Positions 1-8,772 of a DNA stretch of 64,000 bases are shown here, piece after piece. This DNA comes from Terriglobus albidus (GTDB lineage: Bacteria; Acidobacteriota; Terriglobia; Terriglobales; Acidobacteriaceae): contig NZ_CP042806.1 of the NCBI RefSeq assembly GCF_008000815.1, positions 6,200,001 to 6,264,000 of the forward strand, written 5' to 3'. How positions within the stretch are numbered: position 1 is the first letter of the stretch; every line of letters begins with the position of its first letter. The notes beneath the pieces were generated by a model that was given only the letters and a program-made list of their open reading frames with translations, searched no databases and was not told the origin of the DNA. Both the position numbers and the translations under genes were made by a program.

Positions 1-415
1 TCTTCACCCGGGTCCGGATCTCCACCAGCTTGTGTCGGTGGATCAGCAGCTGACGAAGATCCCGCTGCTTGGCTGAAGGTGTCCACAACCGCGGAAACCG
101 GTCCTCCACCAGCAGCTTCAGGATATGGTCCGCATCCCGGCGGTCCGTCTTCTGCTTCCGTACATAGCTGGCTCGGATCTTCGCCGCATCTCCGACCCAC
201 ACCGTGTGACCCAGACTGCTTAGAAGATCAATAAACCACTGCGCGTTGCCGCACGACTCGATCCCTACAAGCGCTCCTGGAGACAACGACCGGTAGAACC
301 GCTCCGCCTCCCCGTCCCCATTGACCAGCTTCGCTTCCCGGTACTCGCCAGTCTCCTGATCTAAAAATGAAACCTGCTGCCACTGCGGATGGAAATCACA
401 ACCTACAATCTGCAT
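1..415 (-). mobile_element. IS110-family transposase, N-terminal part (cut by left edge)
   Basis: Reading the minus strand from an ATG at 415 gives an open frame of 138 codons running off the left edge. It begins MQIVGCDFHPQWQQV and contains GIESCGNAQWFIDLL and KTDRRDADHILKLLVEDRFP. These are the hallmarks of the RuvC-like DEDD domain at the N-terminus of IS110/IS1111 transposases: the first Asp at residue 7, Glu in GIES, and the KTD-x-x-DA motif. The C-terminal Tnp_20 domain with the catalytic serine would lie outside the window. In this family the transposase is guided by a structured bridge RNA encoded in a non-coding end of the element. Whether this copy is intact cannot be judged here. 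Confidence 0.88.
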
Positions 416-1499: not shown

Positions 1500-1529
1500 T
1501 TGACAAAACGGAGCCCTGTTCGGTACTTT
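1500..1529 (+). promoter_or_regulatory. Candidate promoter of the his operon
   Basis: A perfect -35 hexamer TTGACA (1500-1505) is followed after 18 nt by TACTTT (1524-1529) as a weak -10 candidate. It lies between the end of the glutaminyl cyclase gene and the his leader peptide. The predicted start site would fall close to the leader's ribosome-binding site, so the true transcription start could be slightly different. Confidence 0.35.
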
Positions 1530-1542
1530 CGAAGGTAGAGAT

Positions 1543-1626
1543 ATGCGCTTTGTGCACCATCATGGCCACCATCACCATCACGCGATCAGCGTGTCGGCGG
1601 CGGTGTCTGGTGCGGTAGAGAAGTAA
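1543..1626 (+). CDS. hisL: his operon leader peptide (histidine-rich, attenuation)
   Basis: A 27-codon frame starts ATG CGC TTT GTG and then encodes His-His-His-Gly-His-His-His-His-His (eight His codons of nine, 1555-1581). It continues Ala-Ile-Ser-Val-Ser and ends at TAA 1624-1626. An AAGG-rich ribosome site (1532-1535) lies 7 nt upstream. A strong hairpin follows at 1650-1682 and hisI begins at 1729. This is the arrangement of a ribosome-mediated attenuator. When His-tRNA is scarce, stalling in the His run should favour an alternative pairing and allow readthrough into the his genes. No other function is likely for such a peptide. Confidence 0.88.
   Translation: MRFVHHHGHHHHHAISVSAAVSGAVEK
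1581..1591 (+). promoter_or_regulatory. Candidate antiterminator strand of the his attenuator
   Basis: GCG-ATCAGCG (1582-1591), just after the His codon run, is complementary with one bulge to CGCTGATGCGC (1656-1666). That target is the left arm and loop of the downstream terminator, so the two pairings are mutually exclusive. This gives a plausible antiterminator that a stalled ribosome would leave free and a ribosome completing the leader would melt. Seen: complementarity. Inferred: regulatory role. Confidence 0.5.
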
Positions 1627-1649
1627 GCACAGAGACACTCAAAGGATTC

Positions 1650-1690
1650 AAAGCCCGCTGATGCGCAAAGCCAGCGGGCTTTGTTGTGTC
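1650..1690 (+). terminator. Attenuator terminator hairpin upstream of hisI
   Basis: A perfect 11-bp stem AAAGCCCGCTG (1650-1660) / CAGCGGGCTTT (1672-1682) with an 11-nt loop is followed by TTGTTGTGT, a modest U-rich tract. It lies 24 nt after the leader stop codon and 47 nt before the hisI ATG, the position expected of a his attenuator terminator. The 11-mer GCTGATGCGCA occurs in the stem/loop (1657-1667) and again at 1695-1705. Confidence 0.8.
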
Positions 1691-1728: not shown

Positions 1729-2070
1729 ATGGCAGAACCTATACAGCTCGACTTCGCAAAAGAAAACGGACTCGTCCCCGGCATTGTGCAGGACGCGAAC
1801 ACCGGCCAGGTGCTGATGCTTGGCTTTTTGAATGAGACCAGCTATCAGAAGACGCTGGAGAGCGGCTTCGTCACCTTCTGGTCGCGCACGCGGCAGAAGC
1901 TGTGGATGAAGGGCGAGACCAGCGGCAACCGCCTGCGTATTGTGTCGATCTCGACCGATTGCGACAGCGATGCGCTGCTCTTCAAGGTAACCGTCGACGG
2001 CGACGGCCTGGTGTGCCACGAAGGCACTGTAAGCTGCTTCACCAAACCGATTCAGCAGGAGACGAAGTAA
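1729..2070 (+). CDS. hisI: Phosphoribosyl-AMP cyclohydrolase
   Basis: This 113-residue monofunctional HisI opens the ring of phosphoribosyl-AMP, step three of histidine synthesis. The family signatures SRTRQKLWMKGETSGN, DCDSDALLF and GLVCHEGTVSCF are all present and include the metal-binding Asp and Cys residues. It lacks the HisE pyrophosphohydrolase domain that many bacteria fuse to HisI, and no hisE was found in the window. The ATG at 1729 is chosen because MAEPIQLDF is a typical HisI beginning. An in-frame ATG at 1699 lies close to the terminator and is less likely. First structural gene of the operon. Confidence 0.95.
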   Translation: MAEPIQLDFAKENGLVPGIVQDANTGQVLMLGFLNETSYQKTLESGFVTFWSRTRQKLWMKGETSGNRLRIVSISTDCDSDALLFKVTVDGDGLVCHEGTVSCFTKPIQQETK

Positions 2071-2073
2071 GTC

Positions 2074-2949
2074 ATGGCGAACAAACTGAAGCTTGGCATT
2101 CCGAAGGGCAGCCTGCAGGACGCAACCATTGCGCTGTTCCAGCGCGCGGGCTGGGAGATCTACGCGAGCGGCCGCTCCTACTTCCCCACCATCAACGACG
2201 GCGACATCGAATGCATGCTGGTACGCGCGCAGGAGATGGCCCGCTACGTAGAACACGGCGCCCTCGACGCCGGCCTGACCGGCAATGACTGGGTCCTGGA
2301 GAACCTGTCGGACGTGGAGCGCGTCACCTCGCTGACCTACTCCAAGCAGAGCCGCCAGAAGGTGAAGTGGGTACTCGCGGTTCCGGAAGATTCGCCCTTC
2401 CAGAAGCCCGAGGACCTGGCCGGAAAGATCATCGCCACGGAGCTGGTGGAGTTCACCAAGCGCTACTTCGCCGAGAAGAACATCCCGGTCAAGGTGGAGT
2501 TCAGTTGGGGCGCTACCGAGGTAAAGCCCCCGATGCTGGCTGATGCGATCGTCGAAGTGACCGAGACCGGCAGCTCGCTACGCGCCAACCGTCTGCGCAT
2601 CATCGAGACCCTGATGGAGAGCGAGACCCAGCTCATCGCCAACAAGACCGCCTGGCAGAATGACTGGAAGCGCGAAAAGATCCAGAACATCAGCCTGATG
2701 CTCAACGGCGCCATGGCCGCACAGACACAGGTCGGCCTGATGCTGAACGTAAAGAACGAGAGCCTGAAGGATGTGCTGGCGGTGCTGCCGGCGCTGAACT
2801 CGCCGACCATCTCGCACCTGTCGAACTCGGAGTGGGTGGCTGTAAACACCATCCTGGATGAGTCGACCGTGCGCGAGGTGATTCCCAAGCTCAAGGCCGC
2901 GGGTGGCACCGGCATCGTCGAATATCCGCTGAGCAAGGTGGTCCTGTAA
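2074..2949 (+). CDS. hisG: ATP phosphoribosyltransferase, long form
   Basis: The 291-residue protein catalyses the committed first step, joining PRPP and [15 protein letters not shown] at the start and the PRPP-binding stretch [16 protein letters not shown] (about residues 157-172) identify HisG. Its length and the C-terminal segment after about residue 215 match the long, HisZ-independent form with its own ACT-like regulatory domain, so direct histidine feedback is expected from family knowledge. It begins 3 nt after hisI and its stop overlaps the hisD start (TAATG). Confidence 0.96.
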
Positions 2950-4211
2950 TGAAGCTGATCCGCACCTTCGGCAAATCGGCGGCTGAGGCAACGGCAGTTA
3001 TCCAGGAGATCGCGGCGCGTGGAGCAACCTCCACCGCCTCGGTCGCTCCCGCGGTGAAGAAGATCGTCACCGATGTGAAGCGCAAGGGCGACAAGGCCGT
3101 GCGCGAGTATGCGGAGCAGTTCGACGGCCTGCAGCCGGAGCAGGACATCCTGGTCGATCCCTCCGAGATGGAAGCCGCTTGGAACGCCCTGCCGAAGCAT
3201 CTGAAGGCCGCGATGAAAGAGGCCGCGGCCAACATCCACGCCTTCGCCGAGGCGCAGATGCCCGAGGAGTGGATCATTGAACCCGCAACGGGTGTACGCA
3301 CCGGACAGGTCGTACGCCCGCTTGACGCTGTAGGCTGCTATGTTCCCGGCGGCCGCTATCCCCTGCCCTCGACGCTGCTGATGACCACGCTGCCGGCGCA
3401 GGTCGCAGGCGTGGAGCGCATCGTTGTCTGTTCTCCTAAGCCCGGGCAGGAGACGCTGGCGGCAGCCCACCTGTGCGGCGTAAGTGAGTTCTACCGTGTG
3501 GGCGGAGCGCAGGCGATTGCCATGATGGCCTACGGCACCGACTCCACGCCGCCGGTCACGCGTATCGTCGGTCCTGGCAACCTGTACGTCACCGCGGCGA
3601 AGCAGCTTGTCTCGCAGGACTGCGGCATCGATATGCCTGCCGGCCCGACGGAGATTGTAGTGACCAGCGACCTGGGCGACGCCCTTGGCATTGCCACCGA
3701 TCTGGTAGCGCAGGCCGAGCACGATCCGGAGACGCTGGCGATCTTCATCACCACCAATGAGCTGCTGGCCAAAGAGGTACAGAAGCAGGCCAAGGCTCTG
3801 GCGCGGAAGAACAAGCTGGCCAAGCAGTCGCTGGAGGCGCGCGGCACCATCTTTATCTGCGAGACGCCGATGGAAGCCCAGGCGCTGACCAACCTGCTGG
3901 CTCCGGAGCACCTGACGATCGACCGGCCCGAGGATCTGCAGTGGGTCCGCAACGCCGGGTCAGTCTTCATCGGCCCGCAGTCGCCGCAGTCGATGGGCGA
4001 CTACGTCTCCGGTCCAAATCATGTGCTGCCAACAGGCCGCACCGGCAGGCTGCGCGGCGGGCTTTCCGTCATGGACTTCGTCAAGCTGATCACCGTACAG
4101 CAATACACCTCCAGGGGATTGGCTAAGCTGGGACCGCATGCCATTGCGATGGCCGAGGCCGAGGGCCTAGTGGGTCATGCCGAAAGTGTCCGTGTGAGGT
4201 TGAAGCCATGA
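2949..4211 (+). CDS. hisD: Histidinol dehydrogenase
   Basis: The 420-residue enzyme oxidises L-histidinol to histidine in two NAD-dependent steps. It carries the HisD signatures VPGGRYPLPSTLLM, GPGNLYVTAAKQLV, DMPAGPTEIVV, QAEHDPET (zinc-ligand region) and LAPEHLTID (catalytic Glu-His pair). The length is normal for the family. The start overlaps the hisG stop by one base and the end overlaps hisC by four bases (ATGA), indicating translational coupling. Confidence 0.97.
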   Translation: MKLIRTFGKSAAEATAVIQEIAARGATSTASVAPAVKKIVTDVKRKGDKAVREYAEQFDGLQPEQDILVDPSEMEAAWNALPKHLKAAMKEAAANIHAFAEAQMPEEWIIEPATGVRTGQVVRPLDAVGCYVPGGRYPLPSTLLMTTLPAQVAGVERIVVCSPKPGQETLAAAHLCGVSEFYRVGGAQAIAMMAYGTDSTPPVTRIVGPGNLYVTAAKQLVSQDCGIDMPAGPTEIVVTSDLGDALGIATDLVAQAEHDPETLAIFITTNELLAKEVQKQAKALARKNKLAKQSLEARGTIFICETPMEAQALTNLLAPEHLTIDRPEDLQWVRNAGSVFIGPQSPQSMGDYVSGPNHVLPTGRTGRLRGGLSVMDFVKLITVQQYTSRGLAKLGPHAIAMAEAEGLVGHAESVRVRLKP

Positions 4212-5344
4212 GCGCAGCACTCAAGTCGCAGGTAAAGCCGCGTAAAGCCATCGACGAGATGCCGGAGTATCATCCGCCGCTGGCTGGACGCAACGCGTTA
4301 CGCCTGGACTTCAACGAGAACACCTTCGCGCCGTCACCAAAGGTGCTGGAACGTATCCGCTCGCTCTCGGCAGAAAGCTTCACCATCTATCCCGAGCGCG
4401 AGCCGGTAGAGCGCAAGCTTGCGAAGCACCTCAAGCTGCCCCCGAACCAGGTGCTGCTAACCAACGCTGTTGATGAGGCCATTCACCTTGTGACCTTCAC
4501 CTTCTTGAACGAAGGCGATGAGGCGGTGGTCGCGGTGCCCAGCTTCTTCATGTACGACGTCAATGTGCTGGCCATGGGCGCGAAGCTGCATCGCATTCAG
4601 GCCGATAAGACGCTGGCCTTTCCGTATGAGCGGTTTGTCGCCGCCATTAATGAGAAGACCAGGCTCATCATTCTGTGCTCGCCGAACAATCCGACGGGCG
4701 CGACGATGACAAGGGAGCAGATCCGCAACATCGCGAACCTCGCGCCTTGGGCCGCGGTGCTAGTGGATGAGGCCTACTACCACTTCTTCGGCGAGACCAT
4801 TCTGGACGAGCTCGCTTCGCTGCCGAACGTGATCGTCGCGCGCACCTTCTCGAAGGCTTATGGCCTGGCAAATCTGCGCGCCGGGGCTCTGATTGCCTCC
4901 ACCGAACTGATGACGCATCTGCGCAAGGCAGCCTCGCCGTACAACGTGAACGGTGTAGCGCTGGCGGCGCTGGAGGCCTCGCTCGACGACGATGTGTATC
5001 TCGACTGGTATGCGGACCAGATCCGCCTTGGCCGCGACCGCATGGCCAAAGGTCTGGATGAGCTGGGGGTTCCGTACTACCCCTCGCACGCGAACTTTAT
5101 CCTGATGCGGATTGGACCGCGCCACAAGCAGTTTGTCGCCGACGCGCGGGCACATGGTGTGTTGCTGCGTGACCGCTCGAACGATCCCGGACTGTCAGGA
5201 TGTGTGCGCATCACCATCGGCCCGAACGATCATGTAGAACGTGGCCTGGCTGCGCTGAAACTGGCGATCCACGCCATGAACTGGACGCCGGCCGAGGCCG
5301 GCCTGAGCAAAGGAACAAGCGGAGAAGAACATGAGTACGAGTAA
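4208..5344 (+). CDS. hisC: Histidinol-phosphate aminotransferase
   Basis: This 378-residue fold-type I PLP enzyme transfers the amino group from glutamate to imidazole-acetol phosphate. It shows [15 protein letters not shown] near the N-terminus, [11 protein letters not shown], the pyridine-binding DEAYYHF, and the Schiff-base lysine in [15 protein letters not shown]. It starts within the ATGA overlap with hisD and overlaps hisB by 14 bp. Operon position distinguishes it from other class I/II aminotransferases. Confidence 0.95.
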
Positions 5345-5981
5345 GACCACGAAGAAGAAGTCTGTTGCTGCCCCTGCCGTAAAGCCGCTGAAGGCGCGCA
5401 CCGGAGCCGTCAAGCGCGATACGACCGAGACCCAGATTGCGCTGAAGCTGAACATCGATGGCACTGGCGTCTACAAGGTTACGACCGGCATCCGCTTTTT
5501 CGATCACATGCTGGAGCTCTTTACCCGCCACGGCGGCTTCGACCTGACGCTAACCTGCAACGGCGATCTTGATGTCGATCAGCACCACACGGTAGAAGAT
5601 GTGGGCATCGCGCTGGGCGAGGCATTCGACAAGGCTCTGGGCAACAAGAAGGGCATCCTGCGCGCCGGCTACTTCGTGATGGCGATGGATGAGACGCTGG
5701 CCGTTGCCGCGGTCGATCTCTCAGGCCGTGTGGCTTATGTGGTCGATGACAAGGTGAAAACCCGCCTCGTCGGCGACTTCCAGGCCGAGCTGCTGGCCGA
5801 CTTCTTCGACGGCTTCGCCCGCGGAGCTCGCGCGAATGTGCATGTGAAGACGATGTACGGCCGCAGCAACCATCACAAGATCGAGGCGATCTTCAAGGCG
5901 TTTGCCCGCGCGTTGCGCGGAGCCTGCAGCCGCGATGAGCGTATGGCTGAGATTCTGCCGAGCACGAAGGGATTGCTATGA
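5331..5981 (+). CDS. hisB: Imidazoleglycerol-phosphate dehydratase
   Basis: This 216-residue monofunctional IGPD dehydrates imidazoleglycerol phosphate at a di-manganese centre. It has the paired metal motifs [16 protein letters not shown] and [16 protein letters not shown] and the substrate region [20 protein letters not shown]. There is a Lys/Ala-rich N-terminal extension of about 25 residues before the fold. No HAD-type histidinol-phosphatase domain is fused to it. The stop overlaps the next gene's start (ATGA at 5978-5981). Confidence 0.96.
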
Positions 5982-6322
5982 GTACGGTCAAGTCGCCTGT
6001 CGAAAAGAAGCGGCTGAGTCTTTTAAATGATTGTAGAAACATGTACTGGTGGAACGATAAGGCCAGCCGCAAGCTCATCCCTTTGGGGAGACAACGTGGA
6101 CACCAGGCGCTTCGCCGTGCCGCCAATCGGTCGCTTCAAAATGCCGGCCGGTTCATCGATGAAGACGCCGCCATCGCCGCTGAACAGGAAGCCCGCGATT
6201 CCATCAAAGCGCGGAAACGTGACCTCTTTCGCAAAATGTCGGATTTTCCTCTTGGAAAAGTATTGAACGCCCAACGAACTGGTGATCGGACACCTCTTTA
6301 CCGGAGTTGGTCAAAAACATGA
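5978..6322 (+). CDS. Unrecognised small basic protein inside the his operon
   Basis: No family is recognised for this 114-residue product. It overlaps hisB upstream and hisH downstream by 4 bp each (ATGA at 5978 and at 6319), so it is likely translated and coupled to both. The protein is rich in Arg/Lys, with an aromatic patch NMYWWND near residue 22, a basic middle ([15 protein letters not shown]) and a helical charged C-terminal half. There is no signal peptide or membrane segment. Local base composition is less GC-rich than the flanking his genes. The reverse strand is also open across much of it, so a non-coding explanation is not fully excluded. Confidence 0.6.
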
Positions 6323-6927
6323 TTGCCGTAATCGACTACAAAGCCGGAAATCTCACCAGCGTCGTCAAAGCGCTGAACTACCTTGGCGCACCGACTGAGG
6401 TCACGCAGTCTCCTGACGTTGTTCGTCGCGCACAAAAGATCGTGCTTCCTGGCGTGGGGCACTTTCAGGCAACGCAACTACTGCATGACCTGAAGCTGAC
6501 CGAAGCAACACGTGAGGCGGCCGCCAAAGGCACGCCCTTCCTCGGTATCTGCGTGGGACTTCAGTGGCTCTATGTCGGTTCGACCGAAGCGCCGTCGACC
6601 GATGGACTGTGCCACTTCAATGGCCGGTGCGAGCGCTTCCCCGCGACCTGGGAAGGCGCTGACCTGAAGAGCCCACACGTCGGCTGGAACTCGCTGGAGC
6701 AGATTCGTCCAGACTCGCGGCTGTTGCGCGGTATCTCCAATGGGAGCTTTGTCTACTACACCCACTCCTGGCGCGCCCCGGTAAGCGAAGACACGGCTGC
6801 GGTGACGAACTATGGGGGAGCCTTCACCGCTGCCGTCGAACGTGACAACGTGATGGGTGTTCAGTTCCATCCGGAGAAATCCAGTGAGACCGGACTGCAG
6901 TTGTTGAAGAACTTCCTGGAGATCTAG
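6319..6927 (+). CDS. hisH: Imidazole glycerol phosphate synthase, glutamine amidotransferase subunit
   Basis: This 202-residue class I glutaminase supplies ammonia to HisF. The catalytic triad is visible: Cys78 in FLGICVGLQ, and His184 and Glu186 in VQFHPEKSS. The N-terminus [12 protein letters not shown] and SPHVGWNSL are typical. The ATG at 6319 is chosen over an upstream in-frame GTG at 6307 because it begins the conserved first strand and overlaps the preceding stop by 4 bp. Unusually, the partner hisF is separated from it by a 292-bp repeat-containing gap. Confidence 0.95.
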   Translation: MIAVIDYKAGNLTSVVKALNYLGAPTEVTQSPDVVRRAQKIVLPGVGHFQATQLLHDLKLTEATREAAAKGTPFLGICVGLQWLYVGSTEAPSTDGLCHFNGRCERFPATWEGADLKSPHVGWNSLEQIRPDSRLLRGISNGSFVYYTHSWRAPVSEDTAAVTNYGGAFTAAVERDNVMGVQFHPEKSSETGLQLLKNFLEI

Positions 6928-7219
6928 GGATGAACCGTCTGGCAAGCCGAAACGTCAAGTGCGCCGATGTCCTGGGTGCCCCATATCTGCGTAGCAGATG
7001 TGGGATATTCGCGCTCTGCGCGAACCGCTTTCCCTGCGATTTGGCTATCGAGTCGAAGAGCAATGTTCAGACCGCCCGGGTGCCCCACCGTCACAGAGTT
7101 AGGGTGGGCAAGGAAGCCACGAAATTCCGAACAGAACGCAGAATCAATTCTTTCGATGTACCTCAATTCTTTGTGAAGACATCATCTACGAACCAGCAAC
7201 TTCTTACGGAAGCAAACGC
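6928..7219. repeat. Repeat-bearing gap inside the his operon
   Basis: This gap between hisH and hisF holds a REP-like hairpin at 6973-7005 (GGGTGCCCCATATCTGC..GCAGATGTGGGA) and its usual companion arm CGCGCTCTGCGCG. A second GTGCCCCACC..GGGTGGGCA hairpin lies near 7079-7109. The plus-strand reading frames through it are short and consist largely of the repeats. No gene is called. A GGAAG ribosome site for hisF lies at the right end (about 7206). Confidence 0.65.
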
Positions 7220-7999
7220 ATGCTGACCAAACGCATCATCGCCTGCCTCGACGTCCGTGATGGACGCGTCGTCAAAGGCATTCAGTTTGTCGACATCATC
7301 GACGCCGGTGACCCGGCGGAACTGGCGCATCGCCACGCTGCTGCAGGAGCGGATGAGATTGTTCTTCTCGACATCACTGCCACCCACGAAGGCCGAGCTA
7401 CGCTGATTGACACCGTGCGCCGCGCTGCATCGCAGCTCTTTATTCCCTTCACCGTCGGTGGCGGGATTCGTTCCGCACAGGAAGCAGAGGCAGTCTTCAC
7501 CGCGGGCGCAGACAAGATCAGCATTAACTCCGCCGCCATCGCGCGGCCGGAGCTGATCGGCGAGATAGGCGGAGCCTTCGGGGCACAGGCGGTCGTCGTC
7601 GCCATCGATGCTCGCCGCGCTGCTGATTCACCCGATCCGGTACGCAATGCAGAGGTCTACGTTGCCGGTGGACGCAAACCTACGGGACGCAGAGTCGTCG
7701 ACTGGGCTCGTGAAGCGGAAGATCGCGGCGCCGGAGAGATTCTGCTGACCAGCATGGACTCCGACGGTACTCGCGCAGGCTTTGATTGCGAGCTCACCGC
7801 TGCAGTTTCTGAGGCCGTTCAGATTCCCGTCATCGCCAGCGGCGGTGCCGGCACGGCGCAGCACTTCGCCGATGTCTTTACGCGGGGCAAGGCTGATGCC
7901 GCACTCGCGGCAAGCATCTTCCATTTCGGCGTCACCTCGAGCCGTGCACTCAAGGAAGAGCTGGCCAAGAGCAGTATCCCCATGCGCTTACCCTGCTGA
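7220..7999 (+). CDS. hisF: Imidazole glycerol phosphate synthase, cyclase subunit
   Basis: This 259-residue (beta/alpha)8 barrel closes the imidazole ring using ammonia from HisH. The two catalytic aspartates are at the expected positions: Asp11 in IACLDVRDG and Asp130 in VVVAIDARR. Phosphate-binding glycines appear in TVGGGIRS and IASGGAGT. The gene precedes hisA, whereas hisA-hisF is the more common order. Its stop codon lies inside a dispersed repeat copy (7998-8036). Confidence 0.96.
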
Positions 8000-8036
8000 G
8001 AAGCAGACCCTCCGCTTACGCTGCGGATGACAAAAC
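7998..8036. repeat. Dispersed GAGAAGCAG..GGATGACAAA repeat copy
   Basis: GAGAAGCAGACC, a short palindromic middle, then GCGGATGACAAAAC overlaps the hisF stop codon and fills most of the 77-bp hisF-hisA gap. It belongs to the loose family also seen at 9460, 10765, 10940, 16677, 21895, 31156, 41661, 49131 and 53286. Confidence 0.6.
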
Positions 8037-8076
8037 AGATTTGAGAAAGATTCAACGTTAGAAAGGTTGTCGTGAC

Positions 8077-8772
8077 GTGCTGATTCCATCCATAGACCTG
8101 ATGAACGGAAAGATTGTGCAGCTTCGCCAGGGAGCGGAGCTGAAGCTGAGCTTCGATGACTTCGACTACTGGATCAATAAATTCAGCAAGTACCCTCTGG
8201 TGCAGTTGATCGATCTCGACGCCGCCATGCGCAAGGGCGACAACCGTGCGCTGATTCATGACATCGCCAAGCGCCTGCCGGTGCAGGTGGGCGGAGGCAT
8301 TCGCACCGCCGACGATGCCCGTGCGCTGCTCGACAGTGGAGCCAAACGCGTGATCTTCGGCAGCTCGCTCTTCAACACCGAGCCGGATGCCAAGCCCGAT
8401 CAGTTGATCCGCAAAGACTTTGCCGCCTCGCTGCAGAAAGAAGTCGGCGAAGAGAACCTGGTCTTCTCCGTCGATACCAAGAACGGCAAGGTTGCGGTGC
8501 GCGGATGGCAGGCCAACGTTGACCTGACCCCGGAAGAGGCCATCACCTGGCTGGAGCCGTACTGCGCCGCCTTCCTCTACACCCACGTCGATACCGAAGG
8601 CACCATGCAGGGCTTCCCCATCGACACCGCGGCCATTCTTCGCGCAACGACGACGAAGCAGTTGATCGTCGCCGGCGGTATCCGCTCGAAGCAGGAGGTC
8701 GACGATCTTGACGCCTTCGGCGTGGACGCCGTGGTCGGTATGGCGGTCTACTCGGGAGCGATGGAGGCTTAA
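8077..8772 (+). CDS. hisA: ProFAR isomerase (phosphoribosylformimino-5-aminoimidazole carboxamide ribotide isomerase)
   Basis: This 231-residue barrel isomerises ProFAR to PRFAR, the substrate of HisFH. It shows MLIPSIDLMNGKIVQLRQG (Asp7), VGGGIRTADD, FSVDTKNGKVAVRGW (second acid, about residue 133) and VAGGIRSKQEV. The start is a GTG at 8077 with GAAAGG at 8061-8066; no ATG lies upstream in frame near the conserved N-terminus. It is the last his gene, and ogt follows after 43 bp. Confidence 0.95.
   Translation: MLIPSIDLMNGKIVQLRQGAELKLSFDDFDYWINKFSKYPLVQLIDLDAAMRKGDNRALIHDIAKRLPVQVGGGIRTADDARALLDSGAKRVIFGSSLFNTEPDAKPDQLIRKDFAASLQKEVGEENLVFSVDTKNGKVAVRGWQANVDLTPEEAITWLEPYCAAFLYTHVDTEGTMQGFPIDTAAILRATTTKQLIVAGGIRSKQEVDDLDAFGVDAVVGMAVYSGAMEA

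Follow-up and report, generated by a model that had tools for sequence, protein, structure and literature searches.

The analysed window comprises 64,000 nt (positions 6,200,001-6,264,000) of the single-contig 6.41 Mb genome of Terriglobus albidus. Near its start, a histidine biosynthesis operon with the gene order hisI, hisG, hisD, hisC, hisB, hisH, hisF, and hisA is encoded on the forward strand (Table 1), and we infer that hisI to hisA lie on one transcript. Two of the products matched the same Pfam family, His_biosynth, and were taken to be HisF and HisA on the basis of sequence features. The open frames between hisB and hisH (5978-6322) and between hisH and hisF (6930-7226) had no Pfam match and may not be genes. 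Upstream of the operon, a glutaminyl-cyclase-like gene on the same strand ends at position 1495, and a partial IS110-type transposase (2-415, minus strand; Pfam DEDD_Tnp_IS110, 43.7 bits) runs off the window start.

Table 1. Features of the his leader and operon (window coordinates) and cysteine-rich frames found elsewhere in the same genome (genome coordinates).
Feature	Position	Strand	Basis or remark
Putative promoter: -35 TTGACA (1500-1505), 18-nt spacer, -10 TACTTT (1524-1529)	1500-1529	+	Sequence; position kept in relatives
Leader peptide ORF: ATG 1543, stop 1624-1626, 27 codons	1543-1626	+	Encodes MRFVHHHGHHHHHAISVSAAVSGAVEK
Putative sensor: eight His codons (1555-1563, 1567-1581) flanking one Gly codon	1555-1581	+	
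Protector hairpin CACGC-GAUCA-GCGUG: segments 1:2 (1579-1583:1589-1593)	1579-1593	+	Excludes the antiterminator
Segment 2, 5' strand of the antiterminator	1589-1600	+	Pairs with 1655-1666
Antiterminator apical part: 1602-1608:1633-1639 and 1610-1613:1627-1630	1602-1639	+	Predicted fold only
Terminator hairpin: segments 3:4, with segment 3 (1655-1666) on its 5' side	1649-1683	+	Fold and conservation
T-rich tail after the terminator hairpin	1680-1690	+	
hisI, phosphoribosyl-AMP cyclohydrolase, first operon gene	1729-2070	+	Pfam PRA-CH, 104.1 bits
hisG, ATP phosphoribosyltransferase, long form with C-terminal domain	2074-2949	+	Pfam HisG, HisG_C
Rest of the his operon	2949-8772	+	Pfam
hisD	2949-4211	+	Pfam
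hisC-like aminotransferase	4208-5344	+	Pfam, general aminotransferase domain only
hisB	5331-5981	+	Pfam
hisH	6307-6927	+	Pfam
hisF (presumed)	7220-7999	+	Pfam His_biosynth
hisA (presumed)	8077-8772	+	Pfam His_biosynth
Cysteine-rich frame L164	G000:C1:3265772-3265810		Right after promoter spacing; hairpin and T run by eye
Cysteine-rich frame L157	1861977-1862015		Right after promoter spacing; hairpin and T run by eye
Cysteine-rich frame L165	3329525-3329563		Right after promoter spacing
Cysteine-rich frame L167	4124718-4124759		Right after promoter spacing

An earlier note on this DNA had proposed a histidine attenuator from a 27-codon frame with a His3-Gly-His5 run, and this frame is present upstream of hisI. 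For comparison, 110 loci with hisG were taken from relatives: 30 from a collection in which 35 of 41 genomes gave a match, and the best 80 of at least 570 relatives. The HisG of the window was 99% identical to that of T. albidus DSM 26559 (L032). A hisI match lay upstream of hisG in all 110 loci, two of which have only the end of hisI on the contig. Removal of five copies (identical last 250 nt) left 105 distinct regions, which include close relatives and species present in both collections and are not independent. As leader start, the closest ATG preceding the His run was taken, with GTG or TTG as substitutes where there was no ATG. A leader ORF with at least four His in nine codons was found in 102 of the 105 distinct 400-nt regions upstream of hisI. 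The same search yielded 0/105 on the antisense strand, a mean of 0.96/105 in shuffles, 2/97 in the next 415 nt upstream, and 1/102 in the stretches after hisG. Three regions had no leader; two of these (L049 and L075) start within hisI, and in L027 the upstream sequence is only about 257 nt long.

The leaders contain about seven His codons each (315 CAC and 395 CAT in total). In 57 aligned leaders, the codons at 1570 to 1579 had nearly invariant first and second positions and C or T at the third, so it is the amino acid that is conserved. The peptide downstream of the run varied in both length and sequence, and the run itself differed in length and spacing. Absence of the run in relatives had been named beforehand as grounds for abandoning the proposal; the run was found throughout the class and also in other classes of the phylum. 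Three records titled Verrucomicrobia, Rhodanobacteraceae, and Bordetella parapertussis (L036, L058, and L088) encode a HisG 69-86% identical to that of the window and carry leaders of the acidobacterial type; these assembled genomes appear to be mistitled.

Between the leader stop and hisI, the segment 1643-1690 folds at -23.9 kcal/mol (z -4.94; none of 200 shuffles as good). The terminator hairpin begins 23-24 nt after the stop codon, in agreement with the 24 nt reported previously, and its T run is interrupted in the window (TTTGTTGTGT). The search for hairpins followed by T-rich tails succeeded in 95 of the 102 leaders, a count made without a shuffle control. The other seven (L025, L072, L086, L095, L102, L107, and L108) were left out of the structure counts; in L025, a hairpin and a T run are visible by eye. 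A loosely conserved AGGA/GAGATTC-like stretch lies between the leader stop and the terminator (1640-1652), also in the aligned relatives, and is unexplained by any of the counted helices.

A second helix competes for the 5' arm of the terminator. In the window, segments 2 and 3 pair at -18.3 kcal/mol, and in the predicted fold the leader stop codon sits in the loop of the apical part of this antiterminator. The competing pairing put forward in the earlier note (1582-1591 with 1656-1666) can form, at -11.9 kcal/mol, but is not the main conserved antiterminator. The best local structure of 1567-1668 reached -34.2 kcal/mol with the pairing of segments 2 and 3 versus -31.2 kcal/mol with the other one, which was set aside as the main antiterminator at 61.2% versus 84.6% of cells paired over the 95 leaders. 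A third helix, the protector hairpin, joins the end of the His run to segment 2 and excludes the antiterminator in turn.

All three helices covary in the alignment of relatives. Over the 95 hairpin-bearing leaders, the terminator helix (1650-1660:1672-1682) was paired in 86.1% of cells, with 63 double-change cells versus 28.0 in shuffles. The antiterminator had 34 double-change cells versus 17.0; the number of its pairs with any double change (6) was not above that in shuffles (5.3). For the protector, 80.8% of cells were paired and 38 double-change cells were counted versus 13.7. This shuffle control leaves the relatedness among the leaders in. Slid versions of the three helices were paired in 9.6-62.0% of cells, the highest value being that of the protector shifted by two columns. 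The first pair counts had been made on 57 of the 95 leaders, hand-chosen after the swap test described below, with 38 omitted (near copies, rows with weak pairing, and most of the divergent Bryobacterales-type leaders). They gave 89.6% for the antiterminator, 86.1% for the terminator, 89.8% for the protector, and 64.5% for the previously proposed pairing; as this subset leaned towards structure, the counts were redone on all 95. In the swap test, segment 2 paired with its own segment 3 at -20.7 kcal/mol versus -18.9 kcal/mol with those of other leaders (stronger in 64/95, p = 1.9e-5). Measured against 100 shuffles, the pairing of segments 2 and 3 was among the top five for 55 of the 95 leaders and not for the remaining 40 (e.g., L013-L017, L063, L073, and L084).

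A plain consensus scan of 1200-2100 reported no promoter and also missed the terminator at 1649-1683, probably because the -10 box of the window matches TATAAT at only 3 of 6 positions and the top of the hairpin is irregular; positional conservation was relied on instead. Upstream of the leader start, the relatives share the pattern TTGACA, 17-18 nt, TANNNT. In 88 of 102 leaders, the end of the best TANNNT was 6-11 nt away from the leader start, and in 75 the TANNNT was accompanied by a -35 box with at least 5 of 6 matches, compared with 0 of 355 windows further upstream and 0.15/102 in shuffles. SD-like 4-mers preceded the leader start in 11/102 versus 9/102 in one shuffle and were thus not enriched. 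An in-frame hisI start with such a 4-mer was found in 74/102, a count that permits several starts per locus. By the usual spacing from the -10 box to the 5' end, a TANNNT at this distance implies a predicted RNA 5' end between the start codon and 5 nt upstream of it. A promoter adjoining the leader start, with no SD enrichment, suggests that in most relatives the RNA carrying the leader is probably leaderless or nearly so. Better examples of this arrangement exist than the window, in whose species group the -10 box ends 13 nt before the ATG. In the window itself, an AAGG lies in between (7-10 nt before the ATG), and the predicted 5' end near 1536 gives a 5' UTR of about 7 nt. Promoter-ATG spacing alone is not specific, as a scan of the own genome gave 21 matches versus 13 for the reversed pattern. 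According to the accessible part of a genome survey that used the same promoter-spacing logic, 9.7-19.4% of the genes in three Acidobacteria are leaderless (PMC3160421).

Taken together, the leader frame with its conservation, the three exclusive covarying helices, and the promoter position argue for a ribosome-mediated transcription attenuator that senses charged tRNA-His, in a leaderless variant (probability about 0.88). The proposal of such an attenuator in an acidobacterial his operon is thereby supported. The protector hairpin and the promoter adjoining the leader ATG had not featured in the earlier note. In this model, RNA polymerase would start a few bases before the leader AUG, and at or beside it in many relatives, so that a ribosome could load immediately on the RNA 5' end. 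When charged tRNA-His is scarce, the ribosome would wait at the His codons and mask the 5' strand of the protector. Segment 2, left free, would then pair with segment 3, the terminator would be blocked, and the his operon would be transcribed. When histidine is plentiful, the ribosome would cross segment 2 towards the stop codon in the antiterminator loop. Segment 2 would be covered or refolded into the protector, the terminator would form, and transcription would end before hisI. From these features we infer the near-leaderless start, ribosome stalling, in vivo termination, and a response to histidine.

The effect of a ribosome was modelled by equilibrium folding with a footprint reaching from 15 nt upstream of a codon's first base to 14 nt downstream of it. 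With the ribosome at the ninth codon of the window leader, the free RNA (1582-1668) is predicted to fold into the antiterminator (-34.2 kcal/mol). With the ribosome at the stop codon, 1543-1608 folds around the protector hairpin and the terminator (-23.9 kcal/mol) is free. Over the 95 leaders, a footprint on the middle His codon gave a sequestration of the terminator 5' arm of 0.726 versus 0.590 with shuffled spacers (higher in 87/95). Moving the footprint to four codons past the last His lowered it by 0.347 versus 0.086 with shuffled spacers (87/95). Sequestration was 0.680 averaged over the His codons, 0.568 at the stop codon, and 0.578 without a ribosome; the expected drop from the His codons appeared in 58/95 leaders at the stop codon and in 50/95 without a ribosome. 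In the window, the contrast was modest (0.62-0.64 on the His codons, 0.49 at the stop, and 0.52 without a ribosome), with values of 0.39-0.62 from the second codon after the last His to the stop. The equilibrium model therefore favours freeing of the terminator during passage of the ribosome over segment 2, whereas the final state would be a matter of kinetics.

Other explanations differ in what the leader frame or the hairpin would do. The same attenuator could operate with a leader ORF that is SD-led from a longer 5' UTR, the promoter-like boxes not being the true start. The AAGG between the -10 box and the ATG of the window fits this reading, and a real start with a longer 5' UTR is possible, as the promoter was predicted from sequence. 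The fixed place of TTGAC(A)/TANNNT in 75/102 leaders versus 0/355 upstream windows, together with SD-like 4-mers about as frequent as in one shuffle, makes it unlikely. Translational attenuation, in which the hairpin would hide the hisI start instead of terminating transcription, would suit some Bryobacterales-type leaders (L092 and L093), where the hairpin and T run end a few bases from the projected hisI start. We consider it very unlikely, given that the hairpin of the window ends 46 nt before the hisI ATG and that the hairpins carry T-rich tails.

His-rich peptides are able to bind metals, and the conserved peptide could be a functional small protein, for example a metal-binding one, followed by an ordinary terminator before hisI. 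Against this, the peptide following the His run is variable in both length and sequence, the run changes in length and spacing, and double changes occur both in the pairing with the terminator arm and in the pairing with the end of the His run. The leader also accompanies hisI in 102 of 105 regions, and this explanation was judged extremely unlikely. That the hairpin merely terminates the upstream glutaminyl-cyclase-like gene, unrelated to his, is hardly conceivable: this gene does end on the same strand at 1495, but a predicted promoter intervenes between it and the leader, and the leader, the helices, and hisI remain together class-wide.

To describe the distribution of the attenuator, a model (R1) built from 57 of the 95 hairpin-bearing leaders was run on the own genome, where it gave one site at E ≤0.01, and on a draw of 198 genomes from the phylum. 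Each of the 21 same-family genomes in this draw had its best site just before hisI (E ≤6.9e-15; places compared by eye), with a second, weaker match in six of them (best 5.7e-6). Matches at E ≤0.01 occurred in 78 of the 198 genomes, many of which had weak ones only. These second and weak matches were mostly taken as chance. Forty further loci were read, of which 39 came from beyond the class: in 11 of these hisI immediately preceded hisG, in 18 hisG came first, and 10 were not judgeable. In 11/11 hisI-hisG loci, there was a His-rich leader whose start is preceded at 8-10 nt by a TANNNT, and seven of these loci also had a -35 box of at least 5/6. Of the 18 hisG-first loci, three (L139, L147, and L148) had a clear or fairly clear leader ahead of hisG; here the TANNNT was 9-15 nt upstream of the leader start. 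His-rich frames at L124, L131, and L143, and at L138 before hisD, were rejected as too distant or lacking the promoter spacing. From these readings, the His device extends to other classes of the phylum, though perhaps not to all.

The promoter-spacing scan of the own genome also matched short cysteine-rich frames, e.g., MQTAKNSCCCPVCCCV (Table 1). The gene after L164 had a nitrite/sulfite reductase family match below the NCBIfam cut-offs, and one gene after L157 matched YeiH-type putative sulfate exporters, also below the cut-off. A cysteine-rich frame lay upstream of the nitrite/sulfite-reductase-family gene in 13 of 30 relatives versus 2 of 30 in a rough control, and in 5/5 members of the T. 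albidus group. Inspection by eye of ATG frames (8-45 codons) ahead of the PF00425 (chorismate-binding) and leuA-type genes in the own genome showed no Trp or Leu leaders. The cysteine-rich frames support a possible wider use of the putative leaderless leader device. We give even odds to the broader reading that leaderless attenuation is an old, phylum-wide means of sensing charged tRNA, with a His module in several classes and a parallel Cys module before sulfur genes.

Attenuation of his operons is classical in enterics, where the hisL leader is SD-led. The acidobacterial leader resembles Rfam RF00514 (His_leader; hisL of enteric and other gamma-proteobacteria) in its His-codon run, terminator, and exclusive antiterminator. 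It belongs to another phylum and differs in the predicted promoter directly before the leader ATG, without SD enrichment in relatives. The enteric operon starts with hisG, whereas that of the window starts with hisI. Against the His_leader model, window 1566-1687 scored 28.0 bits, below the threshold of 49, and in a scan of the whole window with Rfam only a tRNA reached its threshold. For T-box elements, nothing reached threshold in the window, and within 1480-1760 there was no match even at E values up to 5. No acidobacterial his attenuator was found in the open literature, which leaves out most subscription papers; work of the Lyubetsky group from about 2010 is said to cover attenuation across many phyla and might include such a case. 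In the accessible part of a 2010 survey, hardly any predicted acidobacterial attenuator could be linked to a function (PMC2965389). Enteric his attenuation is treated as a known case in the available text of PMC9413887. This source and the 2010 survey, as far as their accessible parts go, propose candidate His leader attenuators in some Firmicutes, likewise with His codons in a short leader ORF and a predicted terminator and antiterminator (PMC2965389, PMC9413887). Those candidates differ in preceding hisZ, hisS, or his operons of the Bacillus cereus group, Peptostreptococcaceae, and Erysipelotrichales, and a leaderless start is not mentioned in the same parts (PMC2965389, PMC9413887).

Leaderless leaders are described in Actinobacteria. 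In Streptomyces lividans, leuL, trpL, ilvL, metL, and thrL are reported, in the portion of the paper available, as leaderless leader peptides that likewise combine a leaderless ORF, a codon run, and hairpins before the regulated gene. They belong to another phylum and concern Leu, Trp, Ile, Met, and Thr, with no His leader in the table of that portion (PMC8079986). The leaderless polycysteine ORFs of mycobacteria, as outlined in the accessible text of a review, are similar as short ORFs whose one-codon run acts as an attenuator; they differ in being specific for cysteine, in belonging to Actinobacteria, and in acting on the translation of downstream genes (PMC9031893). The available part of PMC4833913 cites a conference paper from 2015 that deals with His-containing leader peptides of Actinobacteria.

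The attenuator described here has good support; it follows an ordinary logic and is apparently new for the phylum. The his leader offers a clear signal, with about one hundred sequences, from a phylum that is widespread in soils. Should the leaderless start hold true, ribosome-mediated attenuation without an SD-led leader ORF would reach beyond Actinobacteria, and whether the two phyla share one device or evolved it from two origins would become testable. If the phylum-wide reading is also true, a ribosome would occupy the codon run right from the 5' end of the RNA, and a codon run without a ribosome binding site would be the entire sensor, a parallel outside Actinobacteria to the known actinobacterial leaderless leaders.
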